From positions 1 through 53,139 of the forward strand of contig DATKVX010000011.1 in assembly GCA_035529855.1 (NCBI GenBank): DNA of 53,139 nt, written 5' to 3'. This document shows, piece by piece, positions 8,307 to 27,853 of the stretch. A program made the translations under genes and the position numbers. Within the stretch, counting starts at the first letter, position 1, and each line of letters starts with the position of its first letter. Below the pieces are notes generated by a model. The model did not search any database. It had not been told where the DNA came from and saw only the letters and a list, made by a program, of their open reading frames with translations. Source of the DNA: a bacterium. GTDB taxonomy: Bacteria > RBG-13-66-14 > B26-G2 > WVWN01.

Positions 8307-9770
8307 ATGATGATGGCCGAAGAATGGCAAGGACCGCTGGAGAAGGTTGACGCGTGGCGTTGGCGGCTGCCGAAATCGTACGACGGCCGCATGCGCGTCG
8401 ACGGCATGATATACGCCGACGAAAAAATGCTGGGGCACTTGCGGATGGACAAGACGCCGCAGCAGGTGGCGAACGTCGCCGCGCTGCCGGGCATAGTCGG
8501 TTACTCGCTCGCCATGCCGGATATCCACTGGGGGTACGGCTTCCCCATCGGTGGCGTGGCGGCGACGCGCGAGCGCGACGGCGTCGTCTCGCCGGGGGGC
8601 GTGGGCTACGACATCAACTGCGGCGTCCGCCTTATGAGCACGTCGCTTACCGTCGACGACGTACGGGGCAAGGTCCGCGGGCTGCTGCAGGGCCTGTACG
8701 ACGCCATACCGTGCGGCATCGGCACCAAGAGCAAGCTCCGGCTGAGCGAGGCCGAACTCAAAAGGGCGCTGCGGGACGGCGCGCGGTGGGCCGTGGCGCA
8801 GGGCTTCGGCGACGCGGCCGACCTCGAGCGCACCGAGGCCGGCGGCTCGCTCCCCGACGCGGACCCCGGCGCGCTGTCGGCGCGGGCGTTGGAACGCGGC
8901 CGGCCGCAGCTCGGGACGTTGGGGGCCGGCAACCACTTCATCGAGATCGGTCGGGTGGCGGAGCTCTTCGACGAGGGCGCCGCGCGAGCCTTCGGCCTCG
9001 AGCCCGACGGCGTCACGCTTATGATTCACTCCGGCTCCCGCGGCCTCGGCTACCAGGTGTGCGACGATTGGGTCAAAGTAATGCGCAGCGCGATGGGCCG
9101 CTATAAGATATCGGTTCCGGACCAGCAGCTGGCGTGCGCGCCCATAAACTCGGACGAGGGCCGGGGCTACCTGGGCGCGATGAACGCCGCGGCCAACTAT
9201 GCCTGGGCCAACCGACAGATAATGATGTACTGGGCCGAGGAGGTCTTCGTTAAAGTACTGGGCGCCTCTCCGCGCGGGCTGGGGATGAACCTGGTGTACG
9301 ACGTGGCGCACAACATCGCCAAGTTCGAGACCCACGACGTCGACGGCCGGCGCGAGGAGTTGCTCGTCCACCGCAAGGGCGCCACCCGCGCCTTCGGCCC
9401 GGGCCAAGCCGAGCTGGCCGACGTGTACCGGGACCTGGGCCAACCGGTTATCATCCCGGGGGATATGGGCACCGAGTCGTTCGTCTTGCTGGGCACCGCG
9501 CGCGCGATGGCCGAGACCTGGGGCTCGACCTGCCACGGCGCGGGCCGCGTAATGAGCCGCAAGGAGGCGACGAGGCGGGCCAAGGGCCGCTCCATCTCGC
9601 GCGAGCTGGAGGACCGCGGCGTCGAGGTCGTGTGCCGCTCGCCCAAGACGCTGGCCGAGGAGATGAGCGACGCCTACAAGGACGTGAGCGACGTAGTCAA
9701 CGTCGTGACCAACGCCGGCATTTCGAAGGCGGTGGCGCGCCTCGAGCCGTTGGGGGTCATCAAGGGGTAG
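8307..9770 (+). CDS. rtcB: RNA-splicing ligase RtcB
   Basis: 487 aa, the usual length. RtcB joins 2',3'-cyclic phosphate (or 3'-phosphate) and 5'-hydroxyl RNA ends using GTP and Mn2+, in tRNA splicing or RNA repair. Visible motifs are GGVGYDINCGVRLM (metal-binding Cys), AGNHFIEIG, HSGSRGLGYQV (His metal ligand), MGTESFVL, and near the C-terminus the catalytic guanylylated-His region STCHGAGRVMSR. All are intact. No archease gene is adjacent. It sits 7 bases after the upstream exported-protein gene and is probably co-transcribed with it. Confidence 0.95.
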   Translation: MMMAEEWQGPLEKVDAWRWRLPKSYDGRMRVDGMIYADEKMLGHLRMDKTPQQVANVAALPGIVGYSLAMPDIHWGYGFPIGGVAATRERDGVVSPGGVGYDINCGVRLMSTSLTVDDVRGKVRGLLQGLYDAIPCGIGTKSKLRLSEAELKRALRDGARWAVAQGFGDAADLERTEAGGSLPDADPGALSARALERGRPQLGTLGAGNHFIEIGRVAELFDEGAARAFGLEPDGVTLMIHSGSRGLGYQVCDDWVKVMRSAMGRYKISVPDQQLACAPINSDEGRGYLGAMNAAANYAWANRQIMMYWAEEVFVKVLGASPRGLGMNLVYDVAHNIAKFETHDVDGRREELLVHRKGATRAFGPGQAELADVYRDLGQPVIIPGDMGTESFVLLGTARAMAETWGSTCHGAGRVMSRKEATRRAKGRSISRELEDRGVEVVCRSPKTLAEEMSDAYKDVSDVVNVVTNAGISKAVARLEPLGVIKG

Positions 9771-10914: not shown

Positions 10915-11052
10915 GTGAGAGTTCTAAAGCGCCACGGCGGTTCCGACATCTTTGCAGCTAAGCTCCTTCGTCGTGGCTTAAGAAAAAGCTGCGCAAATCC
11001 CAAAATTTCGGAGCTTACCGAACCGTCTAAGGAGGCCTTATGGCCGAGGTAG
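10915..11052 (+). CDS. Small ORF, ATP-cone-like (uncertain)
   Basis: 45 codons from a GTG, filling the gap between the ATPase gene and hdrC and overlapping the hdrC start by 13 bases. The peptide reads VRVLKRHGGSDIF then AAKLLRRGLRKSC. This resembles the start of an ATP-cone domain as in NrdR or NrdD (V.KRDG...F...KLLRGLRKAC). Codon use is less GC-rich at third positions than in the neighbours. There is no good Shine-Dalgarno and only half an ATP-cone, so it may be a relic or chance. The evidence is a visual motif match only. Confidence 0.3.
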   Translation: MRVLKRHGGSDIFAAKLLRRGLRKSCANPKISELTEPSKEALWPR

Positions 11053-11630
11053 GCAAAGCTATTTGGCGCGAGACGCCCGACCTGGGCTTCTTGAACGAGA
11101 TCCTCGCTATGCCGGGGGGCGAGGCGGTGGCGGCGTGCATCCAGTGCGGCACGTGCTCCGGGACTTGCCCCACCGCCCGCGACATGGATTATACGCCGCG
11201 CGAGGTGATGGCCCTCACCCGCGCCGGTTACCGCGACCGCGTCCTGGGCAGCAACATGATCTGGATGTGCGCCTCCTGTTACTCCTGCTACGTCAAGTGC
11301 CCCAAAGAGATCAAGCTGACCGATTTCTTCTACAAGTTAAAACAGATGGCCATGCGCGAGCGGTACGAGAACCCGGCGTCGAAGCGGGCCCGGGCGCTGG
11401 CGAAGAATTTCGCGGGCGTCGTCCGCTGGCTGGGCCGCAGCAACGAGATGTGGCTCTTGATGAGGTACTTCCTGGCCACCAACATCTTCGGCGCGTTCAA
11501 ATACGCCGGGATGGGTTTGAGCCTCCTCACGACCGGCCGGCTCGAGGTGTTCCCCAAGAAATCCAAGAGCGCGAGCGACGTTAGAAAGATAATAGCGAGG
11601 TCGCGCGAAGAGGCGGCGATGCGGCCATGA
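11040..11630 (+). CDS. hdrC: Heterodisulfide reductase-like subunit C
   Basis: 196 aa with two [4Fe-4S] motifs, CIQCGTCSGTCP (residues ~33-44) and CASCYSCYVKCP (~78-89), as in HdrC. HdrC passes electrons from HdrA to the catalytic HdrB. It has a good AAGGAGG ribosome site. The stop overlaps the hdrB start by four bases, so the two are translationally coupled as is usual for hdrCB. The C-terminal ~100 residues are helical and positively charged, without a membrane anchor of the HdrE kind, so the complex should be cytoplasmic. Confidence 0.9.
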   Translation: MAEVGKAIWRETPDLGFLNEILAMPGGEAVAACIQCGTCSGTCPTARDMDYTPREVMALTRAGYRDRVLGSNMIWMCASCYSCYVKCPKEIKLTDFFYKLKQMAMRERYENPASKRARALAKNFAGVVRWLGRSNEMWLLMRYFLATNIFGAFKYAGMGLSLLTTGRLEVFPKKSKSASDVRKIIARSREEAAMRP

Positions 11631-12514
11631 CGACGTACGCGTACTACCCCGGGTGTTCTATCGAAGCGACGGCGAAACCCTACGGCCGGTCGATAGAGGC
11701 CACGGCGCCGGCGCTGGGGTTGGATTTGAGAGAGGTCGAGGACTGGAATTGCTGCGGCGCTACGGCCTATATGTCCTACGACCACGTCGAGGCCTTCTCC
11801 GTCGCGAGCCGCAACCTGGCGATAGCGGAAAAGATGTCGTCCTCGTCCAACGGCGCGGTCGAGGTCGTCGCGCCGTGCAGCGCGTGCTTCGCGGTCCTCA
11901 ACAACGCCGTGCACTACATGGCCGAGGACCCGAAGTTGTTCGGCGTCGTCAACGACGCGCTGGCCGCCGCCGACCTTCGCTACGAGGGCAAGGTCCGCGT
12001 CCGCCACTTACTCGACGTCTACATCAACGACGTACCGGAGGAAGTCCTCAAGGCCAAGATTATCCGCGATTTGGCGATGGTGCGGCTCGCGCCTTATTAC
12101 GGTTGCCAGATCGTCCGGCCCAAGAACGAATTCGACGACTACGACCAACCCACGAAGTTCGACGACTACCTGAAGCTGTTGGGCGCCCAGGTGGCGTATT
12201 ACCCGGTGAAGGCCAAGTGCTGCGCCGGGACCTTCATAACTACCCAACCCGAGATCGCGGCGCGCATGGTCGGCCTGCTGCTCAAGACCGCCCAGGAGCA
12301 CGGCGCCGACGGGATCGTGACCTGCTGTCCCCTCTGCCAGTTCAACCTCGACAACTTCCAGAAGGAAGCCGGCGATTACTACGGCGAGGAGTTCAACATC
12401 CCCGTCTTATATTTTACGCAAATCGTGGGGCTCGCGCTGGGCGTCCCGCCCGGCGAGCTCGACATCGATAACCACAGGGTATCCGCTGACGCCTTGTTGG
12501 CAAAGATAGTCTGA
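11627..12514 (+). CDS. hdrB: Heterodisulfide reductase-like subunit B
   Basis: 295 aa with two CCG (cysteine-rich) domains. Domain one has YYPGCSIEAT, WNCCGATAY and APCSACF. Domain two has YYGCQIV, KCCAGTF and CCPLCQFNLD. In methanogen HdrB these ligate two noncubane [4Fe-4S] clusters that split CoM-S-S-CoB. The second CCG reads CCAG, not CCGG, but the cysteines are all there. The natural substrate here is unknown: a bacterium without CoM/CoB would use another disulfide, persulfide or protein thiol. Its co-transcription with NAD-linked and H2-linked subunits shows it is one branch of the complex. Confidence 0.9.
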   Translation: MTTYAYYPGCSIEATAKPYGRSIEATAPALGLDLREVEDWNCCGATAYMSYDHVEAFSVASRNLAIAEKMSSSSNGAVEVVAPCSACFAVLNNAVHYMAEDPKLFGVVNDALAAADLRYEGKVRVRHLLDVYINDVPEEVLKAKIIRDLAMVRLAPYYGCQIVRPKNEFDDYDQPTKFDDYLKLLGAQVAYYPVKAKCCAGTFITTQPEIAARMVGLLLKTAQEHGADGIVTCCPLCQFNLDNFQKEAGDYYGEEFNIPVLYFTQIVGLALGVPPGELDIDNHRVSADALLAKIV

Positions 12515-12527
12515 GCCGGAGGTAACG

Positions 12528-13433
12528 ATGGTAGCGGAAGAAGAACCCAAAACCGGCGAAGAGGAAGAACCGAGAACCGGCGTCTACGTCTGTCACTGCG
12601 GCCACAACATCCTGGGTATGGTCGACGTGCCGGCGGTGGTGGAGGACGCGGTGAAGTTGCCCGGCGTCGTCGTAGCGCGCGAATACCAGTTCATGTGTTC
12701 CGACCCCGGCCAGGAGCTTATAAAAAAAGACATCCGCGAGCTGGGCCTCAACCGCGTCGTCGTGGCCTCCTGCTCGCCCTTGATGCACGAGCGGACGTTC
12801 CGGCGCACGTGCGCCGAGGCGGGTCTTAACCCGTACCTGTTCGCGATGGCCAACATCCGCGAACACGTCTCGTGGGTTTCGGAGGACCGCGAGCTGGCCA
12901 CCGACAAGGCGAAGCAGCTCATCCACGGCGAGGTGCGGCGGGTAGCGCTGCAGGAGGCGCTGACCCCCACGGTGGTGGAGGTTACGCCCGCGGCGTTGGT
13001 GGTCGGCGGCGGCATCGCCGGCATTCAGGCCGCGCTCGACATCGCCGACGCCGGCAAGAAAGTATACCTCGTCGAGCGCGAGGCCAGTATCGGCGGCCAT
13101 ATGTCGGTATTCGACAAAACCTTCCCCACGCTCGACTGCGCCGCCTGCATCCTGACGCCCAAGATGGTGGACGTCGGCGTCCACCCTAATATCGAGCTCC
13201 TCACCTATTCCGAAGTCACCAACGTGGACGGCTTCGTCGGCAACTTCAAGGTGACGGTTAAAAAGAAAGCGCGGTACGTCGACCTCGAGAAGTGCAACAG
13301 CTGCGGCGACTGTATGGAGAAATGCCCGCGCATACCGTACCCCTCCAAGCTTATCATCGCGATCGAGGGTACGACTATTAAGGCCAAGAAACTCGAGGAG
13401 AAAGAAAAGGCCCGGGCCGCGGCCGGGGAATAA
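12528..13433 (+). CDS. hdrA: N-terminal half of HdrA (split gene)
   Basis: 301 aa, about half the usual HdrA length. It holds the N-terminal cysteine domain (VYVCHCGHN, MCSDPGQ, ASCSPLMHERTF, RRTC), then the first FAD-binding Rossmann motif VVGGGIAGIQAALD (residues ~161-174) and a VEREASIGGHM segment. It ends shortly after a single ferredoxin motif, CNSCGDCMEKCP. The remaining half of HdrA (second ADP-binding motif, FAD and Fe-S region) is not missing but is encoded at 15948-17732 behind a NuoG-like domain. A good GGAGGT RBS precedes the ATG and the stop is a clean TAA, with no sign of a frameshift, so the split looks like a stable gene arrangement. HdrA is the flavin bifurcation subunit. Confidence 0.85.
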   Translation: MVAEEEPKTGEEEEPRTGVYVCHCGHNILGMVDVPAVVEDAVKLPGVVVAREYQFMCSDPGQELIKKDIRELGLNRVVVASCSPLMHERTFRRTCAEAGLNPYLFAMANIREHVSWVSEDRELATDKAKQLIHGEVRRVALQEALTPTVVEVTPAALVVGGGIAGIQAALDIADAGKKVYLVEREASIGGHMSVFDKTFPTLDCAACILTPKMVDVGVHPNIELLTYSEVTNVDGFVGNFKVTVKKKARYVDLEKCNSCGDCMEKCPRIPYPSKLIIAIEGTTIKAKKLEEKEKARAAAGE

Positions 13434-13474: not shown

Positions 13475-13969
13475 ATGGCTATCGATATGGAACGGGCCGA
13501 GACGTTGGTGGAAAATTTCCGCCGGAGTGACGCCAGTTTAATCGAGCTGTTGTTGGATGTCCAGGACGAGTTCAACTACGTCCCGGAGAAGGTCCTCATT
13601 ATGGCCGCCGAAAGGCTCCACGTTCCGCTGGAGCGTATCCTCGGCCTTTCGACTTTTTACAACGCGTTTTCCGGCGCGCCGCAGGGAAGGTCTCACGTCA
13701 AGGTGTGCACCGGTACGGCGTGTATCGTCCGCGGCGCGCAGGCGATTCTGGAGAAGGTCATCGACGAGACCGGCGTGGCGCCGGGGGAGACCTCCGATGA
13801 CGGCGACGTCTCGCTCGAGAGCGTGCACTGCGTTGGCGCGTGCGCGTTAGGGCCCATCATAGTGGCGAACGAGGAATATTACGGTCACGTGACTACGACG
13901 AAGGCCGGAGAAATTATCCGGAAACTGAAAGAGGGCGCCGCGGAAGAGGAGAAGGTAACCGCAGCGTAG
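13475..13969 (+). CDS. nuoE: NuoE/HydC-like [2Fe-2S] subunit
   Basis: 164 aa, normal length. It is a thioredoxin-like [2Fe-2S] protein with ligands CTGTAC (residues ~78-83) and CVGAC (~118-122), with the N-terminal helical domain of NuoE (NYVPEKVLIMAAERL). It pairs with the NuoF-like subunit encoded next and passes electrons to or from NAD(H). It sits between the two halves of HdrA, so the NADH module is physically integrated in this operon. GGGAGGATACGAT precedes the ATG. Confidence 0.9.
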   Translation: MAIDMERAETLVENFRRSDASLIELLLDVQDEFNYVPEKVLIMAAERLHVPLERILGLSTFYNAFSGAPQGRSHVKVCTGTACIVRGAQAILEKVIDETGVAPGETSDDGDVSLESVHCVGACALGPIIVANEEYYGHVTTTKAGEIIRKLKEGAAEEEKVTAA

Positions 13970-14014
13970 GCCGAGGGTCTTACCGGAGCCTGACGGACGG
14001 CTTAGGTGGTTGAT

Positions 14015-15928
14015 ATGGCGATAGCGAATCTGAAGGACCTCCACGACGCAAAGGAAAGGGGCTTGGCCGCGCTTTACCCGGCGAAGGTGCGCATCGCCGT
14101 GGGCTCCGCCACGTGCGGTAAAGCCAACGGAGCGGACCCCGTGATGTTGGCTTTGGTCAACGCCGTGCAGCGGGAAGGCTACGACGCCGACGTCGTACCT
14201 ACCGGGTGCATAGGGTTCTGCGCGGTCGAACCGTTGGTCGACGTCTGGCGGCCGGGGCACTCGCGCGTAATCTATAAAAAGATTACCCCCTCCAAGGCCG
14301 AGAAGCTGGTAGCGGCACTCGCCGCCGGCGAAGACAAGGCTTCGTGGGCGTTATGCCGGCTCGAGTCCGAGGAATTCATTACCGACGGTACTATCAAGCC
14401 GTATGGCGTTTCGGCGGGCGACGGCGACCTTGCCGAAGTGCTTACGTACCAGGACCTCCCGTTCTTCAAGAACCAGTTGAAAATCGCGCTGCGGGATTGC
14501 GGGTTCATTAACCCGACGGAATTGGAAGAGTATATAGGCCGGGGCGGCTTCTTCGGCCTGTATAAAGCGCTCCACGATAGATCGTCCGAGGAAGTGATCG
14601 AGAACGTAACGAAATCGGGCCTCAGGGGCCGCGGCGGCGCAGGCTTTTCAACGGGTAAGAAATGGGATTATTGCCGGGCCGCGGCCGGGGACGAGAAGTA
14701 CGTCGTCTGCAACGCGGACGAGGGCGACCCGGGCGCGTACATGGACCGCAGCGTTCTGGAGGGCGACCCCTTCGCCGTCATCGAGGGGATGATTATCGGC
14801 GCGTGCGCCGTCGGCGACTGCAAGGAAGGGTATATATACGTGCGGCGCGAGTACCCCCACGCCGTCGACGTTTTGGGCGTGGCGCTCGATAAGCTGCGCG
14901 GGGCCGGCCTGCTGGGCAAGAACATCCTCGGTTCGGGTTTGGATTTCGACGTCAAGATCGCCCGCGGCGCGGGCGCTTTCGTGTGCGGCGAGGAGACGGC
15001 GCTGTTGGCCTCCATCGAGGGCGAGCGCGGTATGCCGCGGCCGCGGCCGCCGTACCCGGCGCAAAAAGGTCTCTTCGGCAAGCCGACCATAATCAATAAC
15101 GTCGAGACCTGGGCCAACGTCCCGGTCATAATGAACCGCGGCGGCGATTGGTTCGCGGGCATCGGCACGGAGAACAGCAAGGGCACCAAGGTCTTCTCGC
15201 TGGTCGGCAACGTCAACAACACCGGCCTGGTCGAAGTGCCGATGGGCATTACGCTACGCGAGGTCGTCTTCGACGTCGGCGGCGGGATACCGCGTCGGCG
15301 CGAGTTTAAGGCCGTGCAAACGGGCGGGCCGTCCGGCGGGTGTATTCCCGGGGACAACCTCGACCTCAAGATAGACTTCGACGCCTTGACCACGGCCGGT
15401 TCGATGATGGGCTCGGGCGGTATGGTGGTCATGGACAACGACACCTGCATGGTCGAGGTCGCCCGGTACTTCCTCGACTTTTTGCAGGAGGAGTCCTGCG
15501 GGAAATGCACGCCCTGCCGCGAGGGCGTGAAGCAGATGCACGACATCTGCAAGCGGATAACGAAGGGCGAAGGCCGGGAGGGCGACGTTGAGCTCCTGGA
15601 GGAGCTGGGCCGGACCGTCAAGGAGACGGCGCTCTGCGGCCTGGGCACCACCGCCCCCAACCCGCTGCTCTCGACGATACGGTTCTTCCGCGACGAGTAC
15701 GAGGCCCACATACGCGACAAGAAGTGCCCCGCGGGAATATGCAAAGCGCTCATTACGTACTCGATATTGGAGGATAAATGCACCGGGTGCGGCGCGTGCG
15801 CCAAAGTGTGTTCCGAGGGCGCCATTACCGGGGCGAAAGACCAGCCCCACGTCCTCGACGCCGCCAAGTGCATCAAGTGCGCGGCCTGTTACGACGTATG
15901 TAACCAGGACGCCATAGTCCGCCGTTAA
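14015..15928 (+). CDS. nuoF: NuoF/HydB-like NADH-binding flavoprotein
   Basis: 637 aa from the ATG at 14015 (a GTG at 14006 is also possible). It has four parts. An N-terminal thioredoxin-like [2Fe-2S] domain carries TCGKANG and GCIGFCAVEP. The NuoF core has the FMN/NADH motifs GRGGAGFSTGKKW and CNADEGDPGAYMDR. A [4Fe-4S] motif, ESCGKCTPCREG, follows. The C-terminal ferredoxin pair is CTGCGACAKVCSEGA and CIKCAACYDVCNQDA. This is the HydB/HndC layout of electron-bifurcating hydrogenases, larger than respiratory NuoF. It should provide the NAD(P)+ site. The [FeFe] HydA partner is absent; the operon instead supplies a [NiFe] hydrogenase module. Confidence 0.92.
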   Translation: MAIANLKDLHDAKERGLAALYPAKVRIAVGSATCGKANGADPVMLALVNAVQREGYDADVVPTGCIGFCAVEPLVDVWRPGHSRVIYKKITPSKAEKLVAALAAGEDKASWALCRLESEEFITDGTIKPYGVSAGDGDLAEVLTYQDLPFFKNQLKIALRDCGFINPTELEEYIGRGGFFGLYKALHDRSSEEVIENVTKSGLRGRGGAGFSTGKKWDYCRAAAGDEKYVVCNADEGDPGAYMDRSVLEGDPFAVIEGMIIGACAVGDCKEGYIYVRREYPHAVDVLGVALDKLRGAGLLGKNILGSGLDFDVKIARGAGAFVCGEETALLASIEGERGMPRPRPPYPAQKGLFGKPTIINNVETWANVPVIMNRGGDWFAGIGTENSKGTKVFSLVGNVNNTGLVEVPMGITLREVVFDVGGGIPRRREFKAVQTGGPSGGCIPGDNLDLKIDFDALTTAGSMMGSGGMVVMDNDTCMVEVARYFLDFLQEESCGKCTPCREGVKQMHDICKRITKGEGREGDVELLEELGRTVKETALCGLGTTAPNPLLSTIRFFRDEYEAHIRDKKCPAGICKALITYSILEDKCTGCGACAKVCSEGAITGAKDQPHVLDAAKCIKCAACYDVCNQDAIVRR

Positions 15929-15947: not shown

Positions 15948-17732
15948 ATGTTGAACCTCACTGTTAACGGCAAAGCGGTCGAACTGGAAGAAGGGAAGAC
16001 GGTTCTGGACGCCTGTAAAGCCGCCAACGTCGACGTCCCGACGCTCTGCTACGTGGATTTTCTCGAGCCCTACGGCTCCTGCCGTCTCTGCCAGGTCAAA
16101 GTAACCGAGAAGGGCGGGGCGCCCCGGCTCGCCGCCTCGTGCGTGCTCCCGGCCACCGACGGTATGGAGGTCGTTACCGACGACGAGGACGTTCGGCGGG
16201 CACGCAAAATGGTTTTGGAGCTGCTGCTGGCCCAGGCGCCCGACGCCGAGGTCCTGCACGAGCTGGCGAAGGAGTACGGCGTCGACCGCTCGCGCTTCCC
16301 CGCCGCGGCGCGCGACGGCGACGAGCCGCGCAAGTGCATCCTCTGCGGCCTGTGCGTCCGCTTGTGCGAGCAGCGCGTCCAGGCCTACGCCATAGGCTTC
16401 GTCCAACGCGGCCACGAGGCGGAGGTGGCGCCGCCGTACGGCCGGCCCTCGGACGAATGCATCGCCTGCGGCGCGTGCGCCTCGGTGTGCCCCACGGGGG
16501 CCATCACGGCCGTCGACCGCCTCGGCCGCGCGATCGTCCACGACGAGCTGACGCTCTCGTCCAATTCGGCGATACGGGTCCCGATAAAGCAGGCCGTGCC
16601 CAACGTGCCGTATGTCGAGACTTCCGAGTGCATCCATTTCACGCAGGCCGAGGAGGGTTTGGACGCCTGCCGCATCTGCGAGGACATCTGCCCCAAGGAA
16701 GCCGTCGACCTCGACGCGGCCGAGGAGGAGCTCGAGCTCGACATCGGGACCATAATCATCGCCACCGGTTTCAAGACCTTCGACCCGCGGCGCATTCGGG
16801 AGCTGGGGTACGGCGTACTCCCCAACGTCATCTCGGGTTTGGAGTTCGAATTGATGAACCGGGCCGACGGCTACACCGAGGGCGAGGTCGTTATGGAGAA
16901 CGGCGAGGAGCCGAAGTCCATCGGCATCCTCCACTGCGTCGGCTCGCGGGATAAGAATTACAACCGGTACTGCTCGCGGGTGTGCTGCATGTACTCGCTC
17001 AAGTTCGCCCACCTCATCAAGGAGAAGACCGGCGCCGAGGTCTTCCAGTTCTACATCGACATGCGGACCTTCGGCAAAGGGTACGAGGAATTCTACGACC
17101 GGGTGTTGGAGGAGGGCGTCTTCTTCGTTCGCGGCCGCGGCGCCGAGGTTACCAACGTCGCCGAGAGGCCGGAGGAGGTGGGCAAGCTCGTCGTGTGCTG
17201 CGAGGATACGCTCATCGGCGCGTATCGCCGCGTCCCGGTCGACATGGTGGTCCTGGCCACGGGGCTCGAGGCGCGCGAGGACGCCGACGAAGTCCGGCGC
17301 ACCTTCGGCATCAGCTGCGGCGCCGAGGGGTTCTTCACCGAGAAGCACGCCAAGCTCGCGCCGGTATCGACCACCACCGACGGCGTCTTCCTGGCGGGCG
17401 CGTGCCAGGGCCCGAAGGACATTCCGGACGCGGTGGCCCAGGGCTCGGCCGCGGCGGCGCAGGCCCTCGTGCTCATGGACAAGGGCCTCGTCGAGATCGA
17501 ACCCATTACCTCGGTTATCGACGAGGACGTGTGCTGCGGCTGCAAGATCTGCATCGGCCTGTGTCCGTACACCGCGATCTCGTTCGACGAGGAGAAGAGC
17601 GTCTCCGTAGTGAACGAGGCGTTATGTAAGGGATGCGGTACCTGCGTCGCGGCCTGCACCACCGGCGCCGCGAACCAACGCCACTTCAAAAACGAACAGA
17701 TCCTGGCGGAGATCGAAGGGGTGTTGTCCTAA
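15948..17732 (+). CDS. NuoG-like ferredoxin module fused to C-terminal half of HdrA
   Basis: 594 aa. Residues 1-~90 form a plant-type [2Fe-2S] domain ([11 protein letters not shown], then SCVLP). Next come a [4Fe-4S] motif [13 protein letters not shown] and another, [15 protein letters not shown], as in NuoG/HoxU-type subunits. The usual HxxxCxxC cluster between them is gone; the helix [20 protein letters not shown] stands in its place. From about residue 200 the protein is Hdr[12 protein letters not shown], the Fe-S motif [26 protein letters not shown], a [13 protein letters not shown] flavin loop, and two C-terminal ferredoxin motifs ([23 protein letters not shown]). It continues where the separate HdrA half (12528-13433) stops. 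It probably makes the composite FAD site together with that half. Confidence 0.88.
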
Positions 17733-18181
17733 TGGCGGAAACTTTCGAACCCAAGATCGTCGGCCTGCTCTGCACCTGGTGCGCCTACGCCGGCGCGGAC
17801 CTGGCCGGCACGTCTCGCATCAAGTACCCGCCCAACGTGCGGGGCATCCGCGTTATGTGTTCGGGCCGGGTGGACCCGCAATTCATCTTGGACGCCTTTG
17901 CCCACGGCGCGGACGGCGTCCTGGTGGGCGGTTGACACCCCGGCGACTGCCATTACCAGGAAGGTAATTACAAGGCTCTCCGTCGCGTTACGTTGTTGAA
18001 AAAAGTATTGCAGCAGATGGGCGTCGACCCCGAAAGGCTCCGGCTGGAGTCGGTAAGTGCCTCGGAGGCTCAGCGCTTCGCCGAGACGGTGAAAGGTTTT
18101 ACGGAGACGATAAAGAAGTTGGGGCCGATGCCCAAGGGCGTCGAGGACCCGGCCGTGGCCAAGGAGGAAGTCCATGCCTGA
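17732..18181 (+). CDS. mvhD: MvhD-like hydrogenase/Hdr linker subunit, selenoprotein (Sec68)
   Basis: 149 aa when the in-frame TGA at 17933-17935 is read as selenocysteine. The family is MvhD/FlpD, the small [2Fe-2S] protein that carries electrons between hydrogenase and HdrA. Conserved parts before the TGA are [13 protein letters not shown] and MCSGRVDP; after it comes [13 protein letters not shown]. The family normally has Cys in the GG-C-HPGDC motif, so UGA stands exactly at a conserved Cys. A 6-bp hairpin with an AGGAA loop lies 23 nt downstream. VhuD of Methanococcus is also a known selenoprotein. The start codon overlaps the previous stop (TAATG), and the last 8 bases overlap mvhG. Reading the TGA as stop would delete half the domain. 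Confidence 0.9.
17952..17968 (+). promoter_or_regulatory. Predicted bacterial SECIS of mvhD
   Basis: ATTACC (17952-17957) pairs with GGTAAT (17963-17968) around the loop AGGAA. The loop begins 23 nt after the UGA. The codons in the 3' arm (GGT AAT) differ from the GGC AAC preferred in this genome, as expected if the RNA fold is under selection. Confidence 0.75.
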
Positions 18182-19154
18182 GAAATTCAAGTTCGCCTTC
18201 ATGCCCTCCGCGAGCTGCGGCGGCTGCGAGATAGCCATCGTCGATATCGACGAGGTTATCTTGAAAGTCGCGGAACTGGCCGACATCGTATATTGGCCTA
18301 CCGCGCTCGACTTCAAGGACAAAGATTTAGAGGCCATCCCCGACGGCGGCGTTACGGTGGGCTTCTTCAACGGCGCGGTCCGCAACGACCACGACGTGCA
18401 CCACGCCCACCTTATGCGGCGCAAGAGCCAGGTCCTCGTGGCCTTCGGCGCCTGCGCCCAAATGGGCGGCATACCCTCGCTGGGCAACTTCTGGACTACG
18501 GAAGAGATCGCGCACCGGATGTACGACACCGTCCCGTCGGTGGTGAACCCGGACGGAACGCGGCCCCAGACGACTTTCGAGGTCCCGGAGGGCGAGTTGA
18601 CGCTGCCGCGCGCGATGGAGCGTGCCTACGCCCTCGACCAGGTCGTCGACGTCGACTACTACATCCCGGGCTGCCCGCCGCAGCCGAAGTGGGTAATCGC
18701 CGCGGTCGAGGCCGTGGCCTCGGGCGAGCTCCCGCCCAAGGGGACCGTAATCGCCGGGACCAAGGCCGTGTGCGACGAGTGCCCGCGCGAGCGGTCGGAG
18801 GAGAAACAGGTCACGGCGTTCAAACGTATCCATCTCGTCGAGAACGACCCGGAGAAGTGCCTGCTCGAGCAGGGCATCATATGCTGCGGGCCGGCGACGC
18901 GCGACGGCTGCGAGGCGGCGTGCATCGTCGCGGGCCAGGCGTGTCGCGGCTGCTTCGGCCCCACCGACAACGTCAACGACATGGGCGCCAAACTGGCCTC
19001 CGCTATTGCCTCGATAGTTGTCGCCGACACCCAGGCCGAGGCCGACAGGATATTAGGCCAATTGGACGACCCCGCCGGTTACTTCTACCGCTTCGGCCTG
19101 GCGAAGTCGTTGTTGGGGGTGCAGCGCGGCGAGCGCAAGGAAGGCGACGAGTAG
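18174..19154 (+). CDS. mvhG: [NiFe] hydrogenase small subunit, MvhG-like
   Basis: 326 aa. Group 3-type small subunit without a twin-arginine signal, so cytoplasmic. The proximal cluster motif is SASCGGCEIAI (residues ~12-22). Downstream Cys motifs are FGACAQMGG, IPGCPPQP, CDECPRE, CLLEQGIICCGP and CEAACIVAGQACRGCFGP, giving three [4Fe-4S] clusters. It forms the electron path from the Ni-Fe site of MvhA to MvhD. Its start overlaps the end of mvhD by 8 bases. All ligands are Cys; no UGA occurs in this gene. Confidence 0.92.
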   Translation: MPEKFKFAFMPSASCGGCEIAIVDIDEVILKVAELADIVYWPTALDFKDKDLEAIPDGGVTVGFFNGAVRNDHDVHHAHLMRRKSQVLVAFGACAQMGGIPSLGNFWTTEEIAHRMYDTVPSVVNPDGTRPQTTFEVPEGELTLPRAMERAYALDQVVDVDYYIPGCPPQPKWVIAAVEAVASGELPPKGTVIAGTKAVCDECPRERSEEKQVTAFKRIHLVENDPEKCLLEQGIICCGPATRDGCEAACIVAGQACRGCFGPTDNVNDMGAKLASAIASIVVADTQAEADRILGQLDDPAGYFYRFGLAKSLLGVQRGERKEGDE

Positions 19155-19220: not shown

Positions 19221-20687
19221 ATGAAGAAAATCGAAATCGACCCCATCTCTCGCCTGGAAGGGCACGGCAAAATAGCCATCTTCCTGGACGACAACGGCGA
19301 CGTCGCGAACGCGTACCTCCAGATCCCGGAGCTGCGCGGCTTCGAGCAGTTCTGCGTGGGCCGGCCGGTGGAGGAAGTCCCCCGGATCACGCCCCGCATC
19401 TGCGGCGTTTGACCGCTCGTCCACCACTTCGCAGGCGCGAAGGCATGTGACGCGGTCTACAAGGTAGAGCTGCCGCCCAACGGCGAGAGACTCCGGCGGA
19501 TGATATACAACTCCTATTTCTTCTACGACCACCTCCTGCACTTCTACTACCTCGCCGCGCCGGACTTCGTCGTAGGGCCGACGGCCGACCCGGCGGAGCG
19601 CAACATCCTGGGCGTCGTGGCCAAGGTGGGCCTCGAGATCGGCGCCAAGGTCATCGAGATGCGGGCCAAGTCCATCGACGTCATGAAGTACTTCGGCGGC
19701 AAGCGCACCCACCCCATTATCGCGCTCCCGGGCGGCATAACGCGGCCGCTGGACGCCGAAGCCCGCGATGAGATGCGCAAGCACGCCGAGGAGGCCGTGG
19801 AGTTCTCCAAGTTCACGTTCCAGCTCTTCGAGGACGTCGTCCTCAAGAACCAGGCGTACGTGGACCTCGTCCTCTCCGATATATACGGCGGCCAGGAGAC
19901 GTACTACATCGGCCTGGTGAACGACGACAACAAGGTCGACTTCTACGACGGCATGACGCGCATCGTCGACCCGGAGGGCAACGAGTTCGCGAAGTATGAG
20001 GGCACGGACTACCTCGACTATATCGAGGAGCACGTCGAGCCCTGGACCTACCTCAAGGTGACGTACCTCAAGGGCGTCGGCTGGAAGGGCTGGGTCACGG
20101 GGAAGGACTCCGGCATCTACCGCGGCGGCCCGCTGGGGCGGCTCAACGCCTCGGAGGGGATGCAGACGCCGGTGGCGCAGGCCGAGTTCGAGAAGATGTA
20201 CGCGACGCTGGGCGGCAAGCCCGTCCACGCCTCGCTGGCCTACCACTGGGCCCGCATCATCGAGGGCGCCCAGGGCGCGGAGCTGTGGCTCGACTACATG
20301 AACGACGACGACATCCTCGACGAGCACATCCGCAATATCCCGACCGAGACGCCGAGCCGCGGCGTCGGGACCATCGAGGCCGCGCGCGGCCACCTCATCC
20401 ACGACTACGACACCGACGAGAACGGCATCGTCACCGCGATGAACCTCATCGTCGCGACGACCCACAACTACGCCGGCATCAACCTCGCCGTGCGCAACGC
20501 CGCCCGGGGCGTCATCAAGGGCGGCGACGTCGACGAGGGGAAGCTGAACATGGTCGAGATGGCGTTCCGCGCCTACGACCCCTGCATGGCCTGCGCGACG
20601 CACGCCCTCCCCGGCAAGACGCCGCTCGAGTTCGACATCTACGACGCCGACGGGAACCTTCGCCGCACGATCAAGCGCAACTGCTAA
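19221..20687 (+). CDS. mvhA: [NiFe(Se)] hydrogenase large subunit, MvhA-like, Sec64 in N-terminal nickel motif
   Basis: 488 aa with one in-frame TGA (19410-19412) at codon 64, read as selenocysteine. The N-terminal L1 nickel motif RxCGxCxxxH appears as RICGV-U-PLVHH, so Sec replaces its second Cys, a bridging ligand in known [NiFe] sites. The frame continues without a gap into [13 protein letters not shown] and the C-terminal motif DPCMACATH (Cys455, Cys458). After His461 there is a 27-residue tail ([10 protein letters not shown]...) that would be removed by the maturation protease, whose gene lies at 22744. Just after the UGA is a 6-bp hairpin with an AGGC loop. If the TGA were a stop, the first piece (63 aa) and the second piece (from ATG 19500) would both lack a complete active site. 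Last gene of the operon. Confidence 0.92.
19427..19442 (+). promoter_or_regulatory. Predicted bacterial SECIS of mvhA
   Basis: CTTCGC (19427-19432) pairs with GCGAAG (19437-19442) around the loop AGGC, which begins 21 nt after the UGA. The fold uses unusual codons for this genome (GCA for Ala). Confidence 0.75.
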
Positions 20688-21427: not shown

Positions 21428-21535
21428 ACGAACGCGAAGGCCGTCCTTCGTCGTCGCCGTGGAAAACGCTGCGTGCTGAAAACGTTCGCGCGAGGTATTT
21501 AGCTAAAAGTCGGGACGAGGCCGCTTGCTTTCCCG

Positions 21536-21658
21536 TTCCGCGCCTACGCCCCCGGCACGGCTTGCGGGGCGCACAGCCTCTCCGGCAATATGCCCCTCGA
21601 GTTCGACATCTACGACGCCGACGGCGAGCTCCGCCGCACGATCAAACGCAACTGCTAA
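21536..21658 (+). pseudogene. Remnant of a hydrogenase large-subunit 3' end
   Basis: Forty codons plus TAA that align with the last 40 codons of mvhA without a gap: FRAYAPGTACGAHSLSGN against [18 protein letters not shown], then the same [20 protein letters not shown] tail. The DPC of the nickel motif has become APG, so the first active-site Cys is lost and no function is expected. No upstream hydrogenase coding is left. The nucleotide match over the tail is very high, with only a few substitutions, so this is a recent partial duplicate, or the relic of a second large-subunit gene that was mostly deleted. Confidence 0.85.
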
Positions 21659-22697: not shown

Positions 22698-22726
22698 ATT
22701 CCCTCCTCGCTGGTACTAATTTTTTA

Positions 22727-22735
22727 TGTTACAAT
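22727..22735 (+). promoter_or_regulatory. Extended -10 promoter of the hyp operon (leaderless)
   Basis: TGT-TACAAT is an extended -10 element; no good -35 is visible. The predicted transcription start is about 22742, two bases before the ATG at 22744, which has no Shine-Dalgarno. Confidence 0.5.
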
Positions 22736-22743
22736 TCACGCCC

Positions 22744-23244
22744 ATGTCCGCCGAAATCGAGGCCAGACGCGGCAAAACGCTGGTATTGGGCATCGGCAAC
22801 GAGATCCGCGGCGACGACGGCGTCGGCATCCACGTCGCCCGCCGCGTGGCCGAGTTGTTGCCGGCCGAGCTCGCCGCCCGCGTCGACGTCGACGAGGCGT
22901 GCACCGGCGGCTTCGACCTGGTGGACTACCTTCGCGGTTACGACCGCGCCGTCGTGGCCGACGCCATCAAGACCGAGGGCGGCGAACCGGGGACGGTTTA
23001 TCGATTCGCGGCAGAGGCGCTCGAGCCCACGGCCCACCTCGGCCACAGCCACGGCGTCAACCTGGCCTCGGCGCTCGCCATCCTTCGGGAACTTAAACTC
23101 GGCGCGCCCCGGGAGGTAAGGGTCGTCGCGGTCGAGGCCGAGTGGTTGTACGAGTTTCGCGAGGACCTTTCGCCTCGCGTCGCCGCCGCGGTAGAGGAGG
23201 CCGCCGCAGCCGTGCTCGGAATATTAAAGGATAGCGCCCCGTGA
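22744..23244 (+). CDS. Hydrogenase maturation protease
   Basis: 166 aa from the ATG at 22744. An upstream ATG at 22726 would overlap the probable -10 box. The HyaD/HycI family pattern is clear: LVLGIGNEIRGDDGVGIHVA (Asp/Glu nickel contact), then the DEACTGGFDLVDYL segment, AVVADAIKTEGG, and HSHGVNLASAL. It removes the C-terminal tail of the large subunit after nickel is inserted; the substrate here should be MvhA, whose tail of 27 residues follows DPCMACATH. First gene of the maturation operon. Its last codons overlap the hypF start by four bases. Confidence 0.9.
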   Translation: MSAEIEARRGKTLVLGIGNEIRGDDGVGIHVARRVAELLPAELAARVDVDEACTGGFDLVDYLRGYDRAVVADAIKTEGGEPGTVYRFAAEALEPTAHLGHSHGVNLASALAILRELKLGAPREVRVVAVEAEWLYEFREDLSPRVAAAVEEAAAAVLGILKDSAP

Positions 23245-25529
23245 AACCGGCAACGACGACAGCGAGGAAGAGGCTGCGCGTAGCCGGCGTCGTCCAGGGC
23301 GTCGGCTTCAGGCCGCACGTCTACAACCTGGCGCGACGCCTCGGCCTGGCCGGCTTCGTCCTCAACGACGGCGCCGGCGTCGTCGTCGAGCTGGAGGGAC
23401 CGCCGGCCGCGATTGACGAGTTCGTGACGCAACTACAGGCCGCGCCGCCGCCCCGCGCGCGGCTGGACGCGGTGGAGGAGGAAGAGCTCGCCCCCGCCGG
23501 CGAGGATACGTTCGTAATAAAGGAAAGCGTCCCGGGCGAGGCGCAGACGCTGGTCTCGCCGGACCTGGCCACCTGCGGCGACTGCCTCGACGAACTGCTC
23601 GAGCCGGCGGACCGCCGTTACCGGTATCCCTTCATCAACTGCACCAACTGCGGCCCGCGCTTTACCATCATCCGGGGCGTGCCGTACGACCGGCCCAAGA
23701 CGACGATGGCCTCCTTCGAGATGTGCCCGGCCTGCCGGGCCGAGTACGACGACCCGGGCAACCGGCGCTTCCACGCCCAACCCAACGCCTGCGCCGCGTG
23801 CGGGCCGCGCCTCGCGCTGTGGGACGCCGAGGGCAACCCGCTCGACGCGGACGACCCGCTCGGCGAGGCGAAGCAGCTCCTCTTCGACGGCTGCGTCGTC
23901 GCCGTCAAGGGCCTGGGCGGCTATCACCTCGCTTGCGACGCTACCTCCGCCGAGGCAGTCGAGAAGCTGCGCTCGCGCAAGTACCGCGAGGACAAGCCGT
24001 TCGCCGTTATGGCGCGGGACGTCGCCGTAGCCCGGCGGTACTGCGAAATGAGTGACGACGAACTCGAGCTGTTGACCTCCGAGAAGCGGCCCATCGTCCT
24101 CCTGCGTAAGCGCGAGCCGTGCCACCTCCCCGACGCGATCGCTCCGCAAAACCGCTACCTCGGCGTGATGTTGCCGTACACGCCGTTGCACCATTTATTG
24201 TTCGACGACGACGTCGAGATCCTGGTAATGACGTCCGGCAACCGCGCCGACGAGCCCATCGCCTACCGCGACGACAAGGTGGTCGAGCACCTCGCCGGCA
24301 TCGCCGATTATTACCTGACGCACGACCGGGCCATAGGCCGCCGCGTCGACGACAGCGTGACGCGGGTCTTCCGCGGCCGAGAGTACGCCGTCCGGCGTTC
24401 GCGCGGGTACGTGCCGTTGCCGCTCGAGCTGGGCCGCACGTATAAAACGAGCGTGCTGGCGGTCGGCGCCGAGCTCAAGAATACGTTTTGCATGACCAAA
24501 GGCTCGCAGGCGTTCGTCTCGCACCACGTCGGCGACCTGGAGAACGTCGCGACGCTGGAGGCCTTCGAGGAGGGCATCGCGCACTTCCGGGAGATGTTCG
24601 ACGTCGAGCCGGCGGCGGTCGCCCGCGACCTCCACCCCGACTACCTCGCCTCCCGCTACGCGGTCGCGTCGGGCTTACCGGAGGTCGTGGTCCAACATCA
24701 CCACGGCCACGTCGCCTCGGTCCTCGCGGACGCGGGGTATTACGAGGGAAAAGTTATCGGCGTCGCGTTCGACGGCGCGGGCCTGGGCGACGACGGCGCC
24801 GTCTGGGGCGGCGAGTTCCTGGTCGCGGACCTCGCGGGTTACGAACGCGCGGCCCACTTGAGGTACGTGCCGCTGCCGGGGGGCGACGCCGCCGCCCGGG
24901 AGCCCTGGCGGATGGCGCTCGCCTGGCTCCGCGAGCTCTACGGCGACGACGCGCTCCGCAGGCCGCTGCCTTTTCTGGACGATATCCCCGAAGGCCGGCG
25001 CGAGATGGTGCTGGAGGCCGCGGCCAAGGGCGTGAACGCGCCGCCCACGAGCTCGATGGGACGGCTCTTTGACGCCGTCGCGGCGCTGGCGGGAATCCGC
25101 AATTTCGTCAATTACGAGGGGCAGGCCGCGCTGGAGTTTGAGCAACAGGTCGCGTGCGAAGAGGACGGCGCGTACGAGTTCTCGTACGACGACGGGAAAC
25201 CGCTGGTGATAGACGCGGCGCCGGTAATCGAGGCGGTCGTAGCGGACGTGCGGGCGGGTACAGCGCCCGGCGCGATAGCGGCGCGCTTCCACAACGCCGT
25301 CGCGGCCATGGCGGCCGACGTCGCCTCCCGTCTCCGCGACGAGTACGGCCTGAGTGCGGTCGCGCTCGGCGGCGGCTGTTTTCAGAATATAACCTTGTTG
25401 CGTAAACTGGTGCCGACGCTCGAGGGCGCCGGCTTCGACGTTTTAATTCACGAGCGGGTGCCGACCAACGACGGCGGCCTGTCGTTGGGGCAGGCCGCGG
25501 CGGCGCTGGCGCGTTTGGAGAAGGATTAG
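23241..25529 (+). CDS. hypF: Carbamoyltransferase HypF
   Basis: 762 aa, usual length. In order it has an acylphosphatase domain (VAGVVQGVGFRPHVYNLA), two zinc-finger motifs (CGDCLDELL...CTNCGPRF and CPACRAEYDD...CAACGPRL), a YrdC-like domain (KGLGGYHLACDAT, KYREDKPFAVM), and a Kae1-like C-terminal domain with QHHHGHVASVLAD and GVAFDGAGLGDDG. HypF makes the carbamoyl group from carbamoyl phosphate and ATP for transfer to HypE, on the way to the CN ligands of the Ni-Fe centre. Starts GTG at 23241 within the protease gene. All motifs intact. Confidence 0.95.
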   Translation: MKPATTTARKRLRVAGVVQGVGFRPHVYNLARRLGLAGFVLNDGAGVVVELEGPPAAIDEFVTQLQAAPPPRARLDAVEEEELAPAGEDTFVIKESVPGEAQTLVSPDLATCGDCLDELLEPADRRYRYPFINCTNCGPRFTIIRGVPYDRPKTTMASFEMCPACRAEYDDPGNRRFHAQPNACAACGPRLALWDAEGNPLDADDPLGEAKQLLFDGCVVAVKGLGGYHLACDATSAEAVEKLRSRKYREDKPFAVMARDVAVARRYCEMSDDELELLTSEKRPIVLLRKREPCHLPDAIAPQNRYLGVMLPYTPLHHLLFDDDVEILVMTSGNRADEPIAYRDDKVVEHLAGIADYYLTHDRAIGRRVDDSVTRVFRGREYAVRRSRGYVPLPLELGRTYKTSVLAVGAELKNTFCMTKGSQAFVSHHVGDLENVATLEAFEEGIAHFREMFDVEPAAVARDLHPDYLASRYAVASGLPEVVVQHHHGHVASVLADAGYYEGKVIGVAFDGAGLGDDGAVWGGEFLVADLAGYERAAHLRYVPLPGGDAAAREPWRMALAWLRELYGDDALRRPLPFLDDIPEGRREMVLEAAAKGVNAPPTSSMGRLFDAVAALAGIRNFVNYEGQAALEFEQQVACEEDGAYEFSYDDGKPLVIDAAPVIEAVVADVRAGTAPGAIAARFHNAVAAMAADVASRLRDEYGLSAVALGGGCFQNITLLRKLVPTLEGAGFDVLIHERVPTNDGGLSLGQAAAALARLEKD

Positions 25530-25768: not shown

Positions 25769-26856
25769 AATACTTGGAGGAGTTTCGCGACGCCGAACGC
25801 GTTCGGAAGGTCGCGGCCGCCGTGGCCGCCGTTGCGCCGGCCGACCGCGCGTTCACGTTCATGGAGGTATGCGGGACGCACACCATGGCGGTGGCGCGCT
25901 ACGGCTTGAAGAAGCTCCTCCCCGCCAACGTCCGATTGATATCCGGCCCCGGCTGCCCGGTGTGCGTGACGCCCAAGGAGTACGTCGACCACGCCGTCGC
26001 GCTCGCGCGCGAGCCGGGCGTAGCGGTGGCGACGTTCGGCGATATGATGCGCGTACCCGGCAGCTCGTCGGACCTGTTGCGGCTGCAGGCGGAGGGCGCC
26101 GACGTGCGTGTCGTTTATTCGGCGCGGGACGCGGTGGCCTTCGCCCGGGCCGAGCCGGACCGCCGGGTGGTCTTTCTGGGCGTCGGCTTCGAGACTACCG
26201 CGCCCACCGTCGCGGCTACCGCGAAGGAAGCCGCGGCCGCGGGCATCCGGAATTATTTCGTCTTGGCCGCGCACAAGTTGATACCGCCGGCGATGCGGGC
26301 GTTGTGCGAGAGCGGCGACGTAGCCCTCGACGGTTTCCTGTGCCCGGCCCACGTGAGCGCGATAATCGGCGCCCGGGTGTACGAGTTCATCCCGCGCGAC
26401 TACGGCCTGGCGTGCGCCGTGGCCGGCTTCGAGCCGGTGGATATTCTGCAGGGTATTTATTTATTGTTGAAGCAATACGCCGACGGCGAGCGGCGCGTCG
26501 ACAACCAATATTCCCGCGTCGTCAAACGGGAAGGCAACCTGCGGGCGCAGGAGGTCCAGGCCGAGGTGTTCGACGTTTGCGACTCTCGCTGGCGGGGCCT
26601 GGGGGATTTGCCGGCCAGCGGCCTGGCGATACGCGAAGAGTACGCCGCCCTCGACGCCGCCCGGGCGCTCGAGGTCGAGCCGGAGGAGACGGTCCCCGAC
26701 CACGGCTGCATCTGCGGCGACGTGCTCACCGGCGCCAAGGTCCCGGCGGATTGCCCGCTCTTCGGCGACGAGTGCACGCCGGCGCGGCCGGTGGGGCCGT
26801 GCATGGTCTCTTCCGAGGGGAGCTGCGCCGCGGCGTTTAAATTCGAATATGAGTGA
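25765..26856 (+). CDS. hypD: Hydrogenase maturation protein HypD
   Basis: 363 aa from the TTG at 25765, which overlaps the hypC stop; the reading frame stays open further upstream but that part is inside hypC. Motifs: FMEVCGTHTMAVARYG, ISGPGCPVCVTPKEYVDHA, TFGDMMRVPGSSSDL, GFETTAPT, and the C-terminal [4Fe-4S] Cys set CICGDVLTG, CPLFGDECTP, GPCMVSSEG. HypD with HypC is the scaffold on which the Fe(CN)2CO centre is built. The final bases overlap hypE. Confidence 0.95.
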   Translation: MKYLEEFRDAERVRKVAAAVAAVAPADRAFTFMEVCGTHTMAVARYGLKKLLPANVRLISGPGCPVCVTPKEYVDHAVALAREPGVAVATFGDMMRVPGSSSDLLRLQAEGADVRVVYSARDAVAFARAEPDRRVVFLGVGFETTAPTVAATAKEAAAAGIRNYFVLAAHKLIPPAMRALCESGDVALDGFLCPAHVSAIIGARVYEFIPRDYGLACAVAGFEPVDILQGIYLLLKQYADGERRVDNQYSRVVKREGNLRAQEVQAEVFDVCDSRWRGLGDLPASGLAIREEYAALDAARALEVEPEETVPDHGCICGDVLTGAKVPADCPLFGDECTPARPVGPCMVSSEGSCAAAFKFEYE

Positions 26857-27853
26857 CGAGTTAATACAAATGGGTCACGGCGCCGGCGGCCTCCTTATGC
26901 GGCGGCTGGTGGCGGACGTCTTCGCGCGGCATTTCGACAACGCGGCGCTGCGCGAGCTCGACGACGCCGCGACGTTGACGTTGCCGCCCGGGCAAGTCGC
27001 GTTCACCACCGACGCGTACGTGGTCAAGCCGTTGTTCTTTCCCGGCGGCGACGTGGGCAAGCTCGCGGTGTGCGGGACCGTCAACGACCTGGCGGTGATG
27101 GGCGCGGTCCCGCGGTATCTGTCGGCGAGCTTCACGTTGGAGGAGGGGCTGCCGCTCGCGACGCTGGCGCGCGTCGTGGTGTCTATGGCCGCGGCGGCGC
27201 AGGAAGCCGGGGTGGAAATAGTCTGCGGCGATACCAAGGTCGTCGCCCGGGGCGAGGCGGACGGTCTCTTCATCACCACCGCCGGCATCGGCGTGTTCGA
27301 CGGCGGCGGGCCGGCGCGGGCGCCGCTGGAGGCGGGCGACGCGGTCGTGCTCAGCGGCACCCTCGGCGACCACGGCGTCGCCGTCATGGTGGCGCGCGAG
27401 CAGTTTAAGCTCGAGGCGACGATAGAGAGCGACTGCGCGCCGCTGGGCGGCCTGTGCGCGGCGATGCGCGAGGCCGCGCCGGGTTTGAAGTTCATGCGGG
27501 ACCCGACGCGCGGCGGCCTGGCCGCGGCGCTCAACGAAGTCGCGGCGGCGTACGGCGTCGGCGTCGAGATATACGAAGAAAATATACCGTTCAACGAGGA
27601 CGTCGTCGCGGTGTGCGAGATATTGGGGCTCGACCCCCTCCTGGTAGCCAACGAGGGGAGGGTGGTCGCGGTGGCGCCGGCGGCCGAGGCCGAGGCGCTC
27701 GTGGCCGCGATGCGCAACCACCCGCTGGGCGCGCGCGCCGCGGTCATCGGCGAAGTCGTGGCCGAGCCCAAGCGCGTCTTCGTCCGCACCACGGTGGGCG
27801 GAACGCGCATCCTGGAGATGCCGCTCGCCGACCAGCTGCCGAGGATATGCTAA
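26849..27853 (+). CDS. hypE: Hydrogenase maturation protein HypE
   Basis: 334 aa with the AIR-synthase/SelD-like fold: MGHGAGGLLMRRL, DDAATLTLPPGQVAFTTDAY, GTVNDLAVMGAVPRYLS, HGVAVMVAREQ, DPTRGGLAAALNE. The C-terminus is the required PRIC, whose Cys is converted to thiocyanate. It overlaps hypD by 8 bases. It is not SelD: it lacks the Sec/Cys-containing N-terminus of selenophosphate synthetase. Confidence 0.95.
   Translation: MSDELIQMGHGAGGLLMRRLVADVFARHFDNAALRELDDAATLTLPPGQVAFTTDAYVVKPLFFPGGDVGKLAVCGTVNDLAVMGAVPRYLSASFTLEEGLPLATLARVVVSMAAAAQEAGVEIVCGDTKVVARGEADGLFITTAGIGVFDGGGPARAPLEAGDAVVLSGTLGDHGVAVMVAREQFKLEATIESDCAPLGGLCAAMREAAPGLKFMRDPTRGGLAAALNEVAAAYGVGVEIYEENIPFNEDVVAVCEILGLDPLLVANEGRVVAVAPAAEAEALVAAMRNHPLGARAAVIGEVVAEPKRVFVRTTVGGTRILEMPLADQLPRIC

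Follow-up and report, generated by a model that had tools for sequence, protein, structure and literature searches.

An in-frame TGA at the N-terminal bridging-cysteine position of an MvhA-type [NiFe] hydrogenase points to a naturally occurring selenocysteine ligand

Introduction

Explanations for the use of selenium in [NiFe] hydrogenases have centred on a single terminal ligand, to which a special role in proton transfer and in protection against oxidants is ascribed. The described [NiFeSe] enzymes HysA, FrhA and VhuU are UGA-encoded selenium variants of the common active site, and in each the selenocysteine (Sec) is the first residue of a C-terminal UxxC motif and a terminal nickel ligand. 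A 2026 inventory that separates 119 subfamilies by Sec position lists hydrogenase large subunits as UxxC only (PMC13188914). In the hydrogenase of Desulfovibrio vulgaris Miyazaki F, Cys84 and Cys549 bridge nickel and iron, while Cys81 and Cys546 bind nickel alone (PMC12117559).

Other positions have been occupied by selenium in the laboratory. In Escherichia coli Hyd-1 and Hyd-2, each of the nickel cysteines, the bridging ones included, has been replaced by Sec (Evans et al. 2021, 2024; as described in PMC13111528). In Hyd-1, every such replacement reportedly reduced H2 oxidation, and O2 tolerance rose only with Sec at the natural NiFeSe position (PMC9961374). In contrast to these engineered variants, the gene analyzed here would represent a natural use of another position. 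An earlier note, made from the DNA alone, had drawn attention to it as a possible enzyme with Sec in its N-terminal nickel motif.

Results

The large-subunit gene and its TGA codon

The window, by which we mean the whole stretch of DNA analyzed, comprises 53,139 nucleotides of contig DATKVX010000011.1 (assembly GCA_035529855.1). On its plus strand, positions 19221..20687 form an open reading frame that begins with ATG, ends with TAA and translates into 488 amino acids. The product matches PF00374 with 126 bits (cut-off 25.8), and its closest solved relative is the methanogen F420-non-reducing hydrogenase subunit MvhA (5odc; E=1.6e-108), to which residues 1-477 align with the L1 and L2 motifs in register. 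By sequence and by its gene context of MvhG, MvhD and Hdr subunits, the product is an MvhA-type (group 3) [NiFe] hydrogenase large subunit. Against NCBIfam NF041785, the VhuA equivalog profile, it scores 397 bits where the cut-off is 800; on this profile it is a relative of VhuA and not an equivalog. The second-best solved relative is the large subunit of PDB 7t2r (E=7.6e-106), presumably a bifurcating NiFe hydrogenase of the HydABCSL type, which shares NuoE/NuoF-like and Fe-S partners with the window cluster but differs from it in HdrA, which in the window is split around nuoE-nuoF. No other full-length relative of the subunit was found in the same genome.

The reading frame contains one internal stop codon, a TGA at codon 64 (19410..19412, plus strand), in the context RICGV-U-PLVHH. 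It occupies the second cysteine position of L1, where both MvhA (residue 64, RICGIC) and 7t2r have Cys. The C-terminal L2 motif (20577..20594) reads DPCMAC in translation and is all cysteine. The earlier note had described the TGA, the intact frame on either side and the cysteine-only C-terminus in the same way, and the translation bears it out. The gene thus encodes three of the four cysteines of the usual ligand set plus one TGA, and the Sec that defines classical [NiFeSe] enzymes, the first residue of a C-terminal DPUxxC, is absent.

The L1 pair of the D. vulgaris Miyazaki F enzyme consists of Cys81 and Cys84, and residue 64 corresponds to the bridging Cys84. CxxC spacing and the alignment accordingly place residue 64 at the predicted bridging Ni-Fe position, and the bridging role proposed in the earlier note is supported at the level of homology. 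Whereas Sec in HysA, FrhA and VhuU is the first residue of a C-terminal UxxC, here it would be the second of an N-terminal CxxU. We consider it very likely that UGA64 is read as Sec, by SelB and tRNA-Sec acting with a hairpin in the message, and that this residue serves as a bridging ligand in a natural variant of the MvhA type.

A different arrangement, in which Sec is inserted but does not bridge the metals of an active hydrogenase and instead belongs to a rearranged site, a redox switch or a regulatory function, is the best surviving of the alternatives and nevertheless improbable. Ligands can move, since the oxidized Hydrogenophilus thermoluteolus enzyme has a reorganized nickel coordination (PMC10214449). 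However, conservation extends to the other three ligand positions and the surroundings of L1 and L2, as well as to the small subunit and the genes for maturation.

Conservation of the TGA among relatives

The same codon is present in three further genomes of the genus (L001-L003, taken as G006, G004 and G005, each counted once), whose proteins are 90-91% identical to the window protein, and thus in all four sampled species. Public labels of these three metagenome-assembled genomes (MAGs) clash: two of the records say Zixiibacteriota, the other Coatesbacteria. G003, from another family of the same order, also has TGA at codon 64, in a gene with 74% identity located on a 2.6 Mb single contig. 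The same-class genomes G001 and G002 have Cys at the site, and so does every other sampled genome of the phylum whose sequence there is readable. The homologues of which the earlier note had suggested a survey carry either Cys or TGA at this position. Most of the Cys-bearing relatives in the phylum possess selA, which argues that the Sec machinery is insufficient to account for the TGA.

Pairwise comparison of the same-genus genes gave more synonymous than non-synonymous codon differences for five of the six pairs in the part before codon 64, and for all six in the part after it, as in a gene translated on both sides of the TGA. A separate MvhA-like gene, from a Desulfobacterales MAG (L013, 2286-3719), has its TGA in the C-terminal motif (DPUISC), so that a bacterial group 3 enzyme carries it where classical NiFeSe enzymes have Sec.

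A SECIS-like hairpin downstream of the TGA

A hairpin resembling a SECIS element, CUUCGC-AGGC-GCGAAG, is predicted at 19427..19442 of the plus strand, with its loop beginning 20 nt after the UGA. The 53-nt stretch at this site folds better than each of 200 shuffled sequences (z=-3.6). Across four species, codons 65-78 show synonymous changes in 0 of 14 cases, compared with 124 of 381 elsewhere in the gene (p=0.004), and the longest invariant run in the same-genus genes spans codons 59-78. With a criterion of a stem of at least 6 bp and a loop that starts NGG 19-22 nt past the UGA, which was set after viewing these same sequences and is thus tuned on them, the hairpin is found in 7/7 TGA genes and in 0/20 Cys homologues. 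In the seven TGA genes it stands 20-22 nt after the UGA. The same layout occurs in selD and mvhD of this genome. The two TGA genes from other phyla described below (L067 in G211 and L068 in G141) differ in one stem pair, U-A against C-G; both substitutions are synonymous and pairing is retained.

Synonymous recodings of the same peptide yield such a hairpin in 35% of trials for the window gene, so that its presence there is not significant alone; the corresponding rates are 2% for L067, 0.8% for L068 and 2.6% for mvhD. The case for the hairpin rests on the gene set, on independent lineages and on the contrast with Cys homologues, and not on the window gene by itself. A scan of the window against Rfam matched no RNA family, which is expected because SECIS elements are gene-specific.

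These data bear on the reading in which the UGA is a true stop, leaving either a broken gene or two polypeptides, one of 63 amino acids and one restarted at 19500. TGA does serve as a normal stop elsewhere in the cluster, and an ATG is present at 19500. Yet the protein is kept on both sides of the TGA over a range of 74-91% identity, a restart at 19500 would drop the L1 region, the hairpin and the synonymous conservation would be left unexplained, and the genome would be left without a full-length subunit of this kind. We regard this reading as very unlikely.

Selenocysteine decoding machinery

The genome contains a tRNA-Sec with anticodon TCA (66.7 bits, cut-off 47) together with SelB (327.6 bits), SelA (393.8 bits) and SelD (345.8 bits), all three by profile score; selD itself contains a TGA. 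The absence of such genes would have counted against the earlier note, which had named them as a check. The gene set, an in-frame UGA aligned with Cys of homologues and a SECIS-like hairpin just 3' of it are features by which bacterial selenoprotein genes are recognized, and on these grounds we strongly infer Sec insertion at codon 64.

Reassignment of UGA, or its read-through as another amino acid, would also yield a full-length protein. However, hdrC, hdrB and the maturation protease gene of the same cluster end at ordinary TGA stops and Trp in the cluster genes is encoded by TGG; from these sequences, UGA is not generally reassigned. Internal TGA codons occur in the cluster only at codon 68 of mvhD and codon 64 of mvhA, and the latter falls on a metal-ligand Cys in a genome equipped for Sec. 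This explanation thus carries as little weight as that of a true stop.

Occurrence in other phyla

A codon-pattern search (Arg-x-Cys-Gly-x-TGA-x-x-x-His-His/Arg) of 386 genomes sampled across the domain recovered the five genes already known and added two, in G211 and G141. One further match, L069 in G333, was rejected as due to chance, its frame being short and its product not a hydrogenase. The two new genes are full-length and MvhA-like, with 59-60% identity to the window protein, an L1 motif of RICGV-U-PGAHH and an intact DPC..C. G211 and G141 belong to two other phyla, represented by 6 and 2 sampled genomes, and selA is present in both, as it is in G003. In G141 the TGA gene is preceded by the same series of hdrA, nuoF, nuoG-hdrA, mvhD and mvhG; in G211 mvhG lies upstream and an apparent maturation protease gene downstream. 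Resampling of genomes around G141 drew a nearly identical set and gave no further case, and a search of viral contigs gave no match. In total, the codon-64 TGA occurs in seven genomes of three phyla, and the close relatives otherwise examined all have Cys.

A maximum-likelihood tree was built from 26 sequences, Sec being entered as a gap. In it, the proteins of the window's order (100/100) adjoin a Chloroflexota Cys protein, and those of G141 and G211 (89/85) adjoin a Bacteroidota Cys protein. The tree needs two changes, and a single TGA clade is rejected (AU p=0.005); sampling is thin and supports near the relevant forks are 86-93. Because the tree rejects a single clade, at least two origins of the L1 TGA are likely on the sequences sampled. 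One gain followed by losses is a possible alternative.

A sequencing or assembly error in a Cys codon has almost nothing to recommend it: every sequence compared is an assembly, and most are MAGs, but the same codon appears in seven separate assemblies, one of them with the gene on the long single contig of G003. Equally negligible is the notion that the gene encodes a standard [NiFeSe] hydrogenase like HysA, VhuU or FrhA. Sec in a NiFe large subunit and the DPUISC relative would fit it, but the C-terminal position is Cys in 7/7 L1-TGA proteins.

The gene cluster

The large-subunit gene lies in a plus-strand cluster. It begins with genes for an hdrC-like Fe-S subunit (11040..11630, profile match) and an hdrB-like protein with CCG domain (11627..12514, PF02754), followed by the N-terminal half of HdrA (12528..13433, profile matches), a nuoE-like [2Fe-2S] subunit (13475..13969, PF01257), a nuoF-like NADH/FMN subunit (14006..15928, profile matches) and a NuoG-type Fe-S domain fused to the C-terminal half of HdrA (15948..17732, profile matches). 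HdrA is thus split, with nuoE and nuoF between its halves and the second half behind the NuoG-type domain; the same split occurs in G141. Next are an mvhD-like (FlpD) gene (17732..18181, PF02662) and the mvhG-like small-subunit gene (18174..19154, PF01058), for which VhuG is the best match. Their composition suggests that HdrB, HdrC, split HdrA, NuoE, NuoF, NuoG-HdrA, MvhD and MvhG form a soluble electron-bifurcating complex.

The mvhD TGA is codon 68 (17933-17935), within GG-U-HPGDCHY, and is followed by a SECIS-like hairpin at 17952-17968. MvhD is already listed as a selenoprotein (PMC13188914). The mvhD TGA is shared by L001, L003 and G003; mvhD of G141 has Cys, although its mvhA has the L1 TGA.

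Downstream of mvhA lie genes for a maturation protease of the HycI family (22726..23244, PF01750), a hypF-like maturation protein (23241..25529, recognized by reading the translation only) and HypE (26849..27853, TIGR02124 above cut-off). Between mvhA and the protease gene, positions 21524-21658 repeat the last 44 residues of the large subunit in degenerate form (68% identity), with APGTAC where mvhA has DPCMAC, in this genome only. The fragment is a relic of duplication or recombination. We rejected it as a separate VhuU-like subunit, its DPC being lost and its occurrence limited to this genome. Upstream of the cluster, 8307-9770 encodes an RtcB-family protein whose best match is the intein-containing RtcB family, over the C-terminal part of the model only.

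Discussion

We propose that UGA at codon 64 would be decoded by SelB and tRNA-Sec under direction of the hairpin just downstream. Sec64 would replace the N-terminal bridging Cys, so that the Ni-Fe bridge would consist of one selenolate and one thiolate, and both terminal nickel ligands would remain Cys. The enzyme would work within the soluble Hdr-Nuo-Mvh complex, where H2 is probably coupled by bifurcation to NAD(H), ferredoxin and a disulfide or another partner.

Selenium oxides are easier to reduce, and one idea for selenium at this site is a reversible oxidation of the bridge. As conjecture, a selenolate bridge might ease recovery after oxidation, or it might tune the electronics of the Ni-Fe center. 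In the group 3 enzyme of Cupriavidus necator, O2 tolerance is reportedly achieved by reversible sulfoxygenation of the bridging cysteines (PMC12596923). The Hyd-1 Sec variants argue against a simple benefit, which makes the natural L1 case of greater interest.

The earlier note knew of no such enzyme, and our searches of the open-licence literature, where absence is weak evidence, likewise yielded no description of a hydrogenase that naturally has Sec in its N-terminal motif; nor did the 2026 inventory, whose UxxC-only entry agrees with the C-terminal Sec that the note gives for known [NiFeSe] enzymes. L1-TGA genes have probably been missed in databases because standard gene callers would split them.

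We think it probable that, beside the classical [NiFeSe] enzymes, these genes represent a second class of natural [NiFe] hydrogenases with selenium. Their N-terminal bridging Sec would have arisen two or more times among uncultured anaerobes, and selection would have repeatedly favoured a position at which engineering of E. coli enzymes showed no advantage. If this is true, a repeatedly evolved bridging Sec would mean that the usefulness of selenium at the active site is not confined to the one terminal ligand. It would also offer a natural test of what each of the four thiolates does, and it would enlarge the known selenoproteome by a subfamily.
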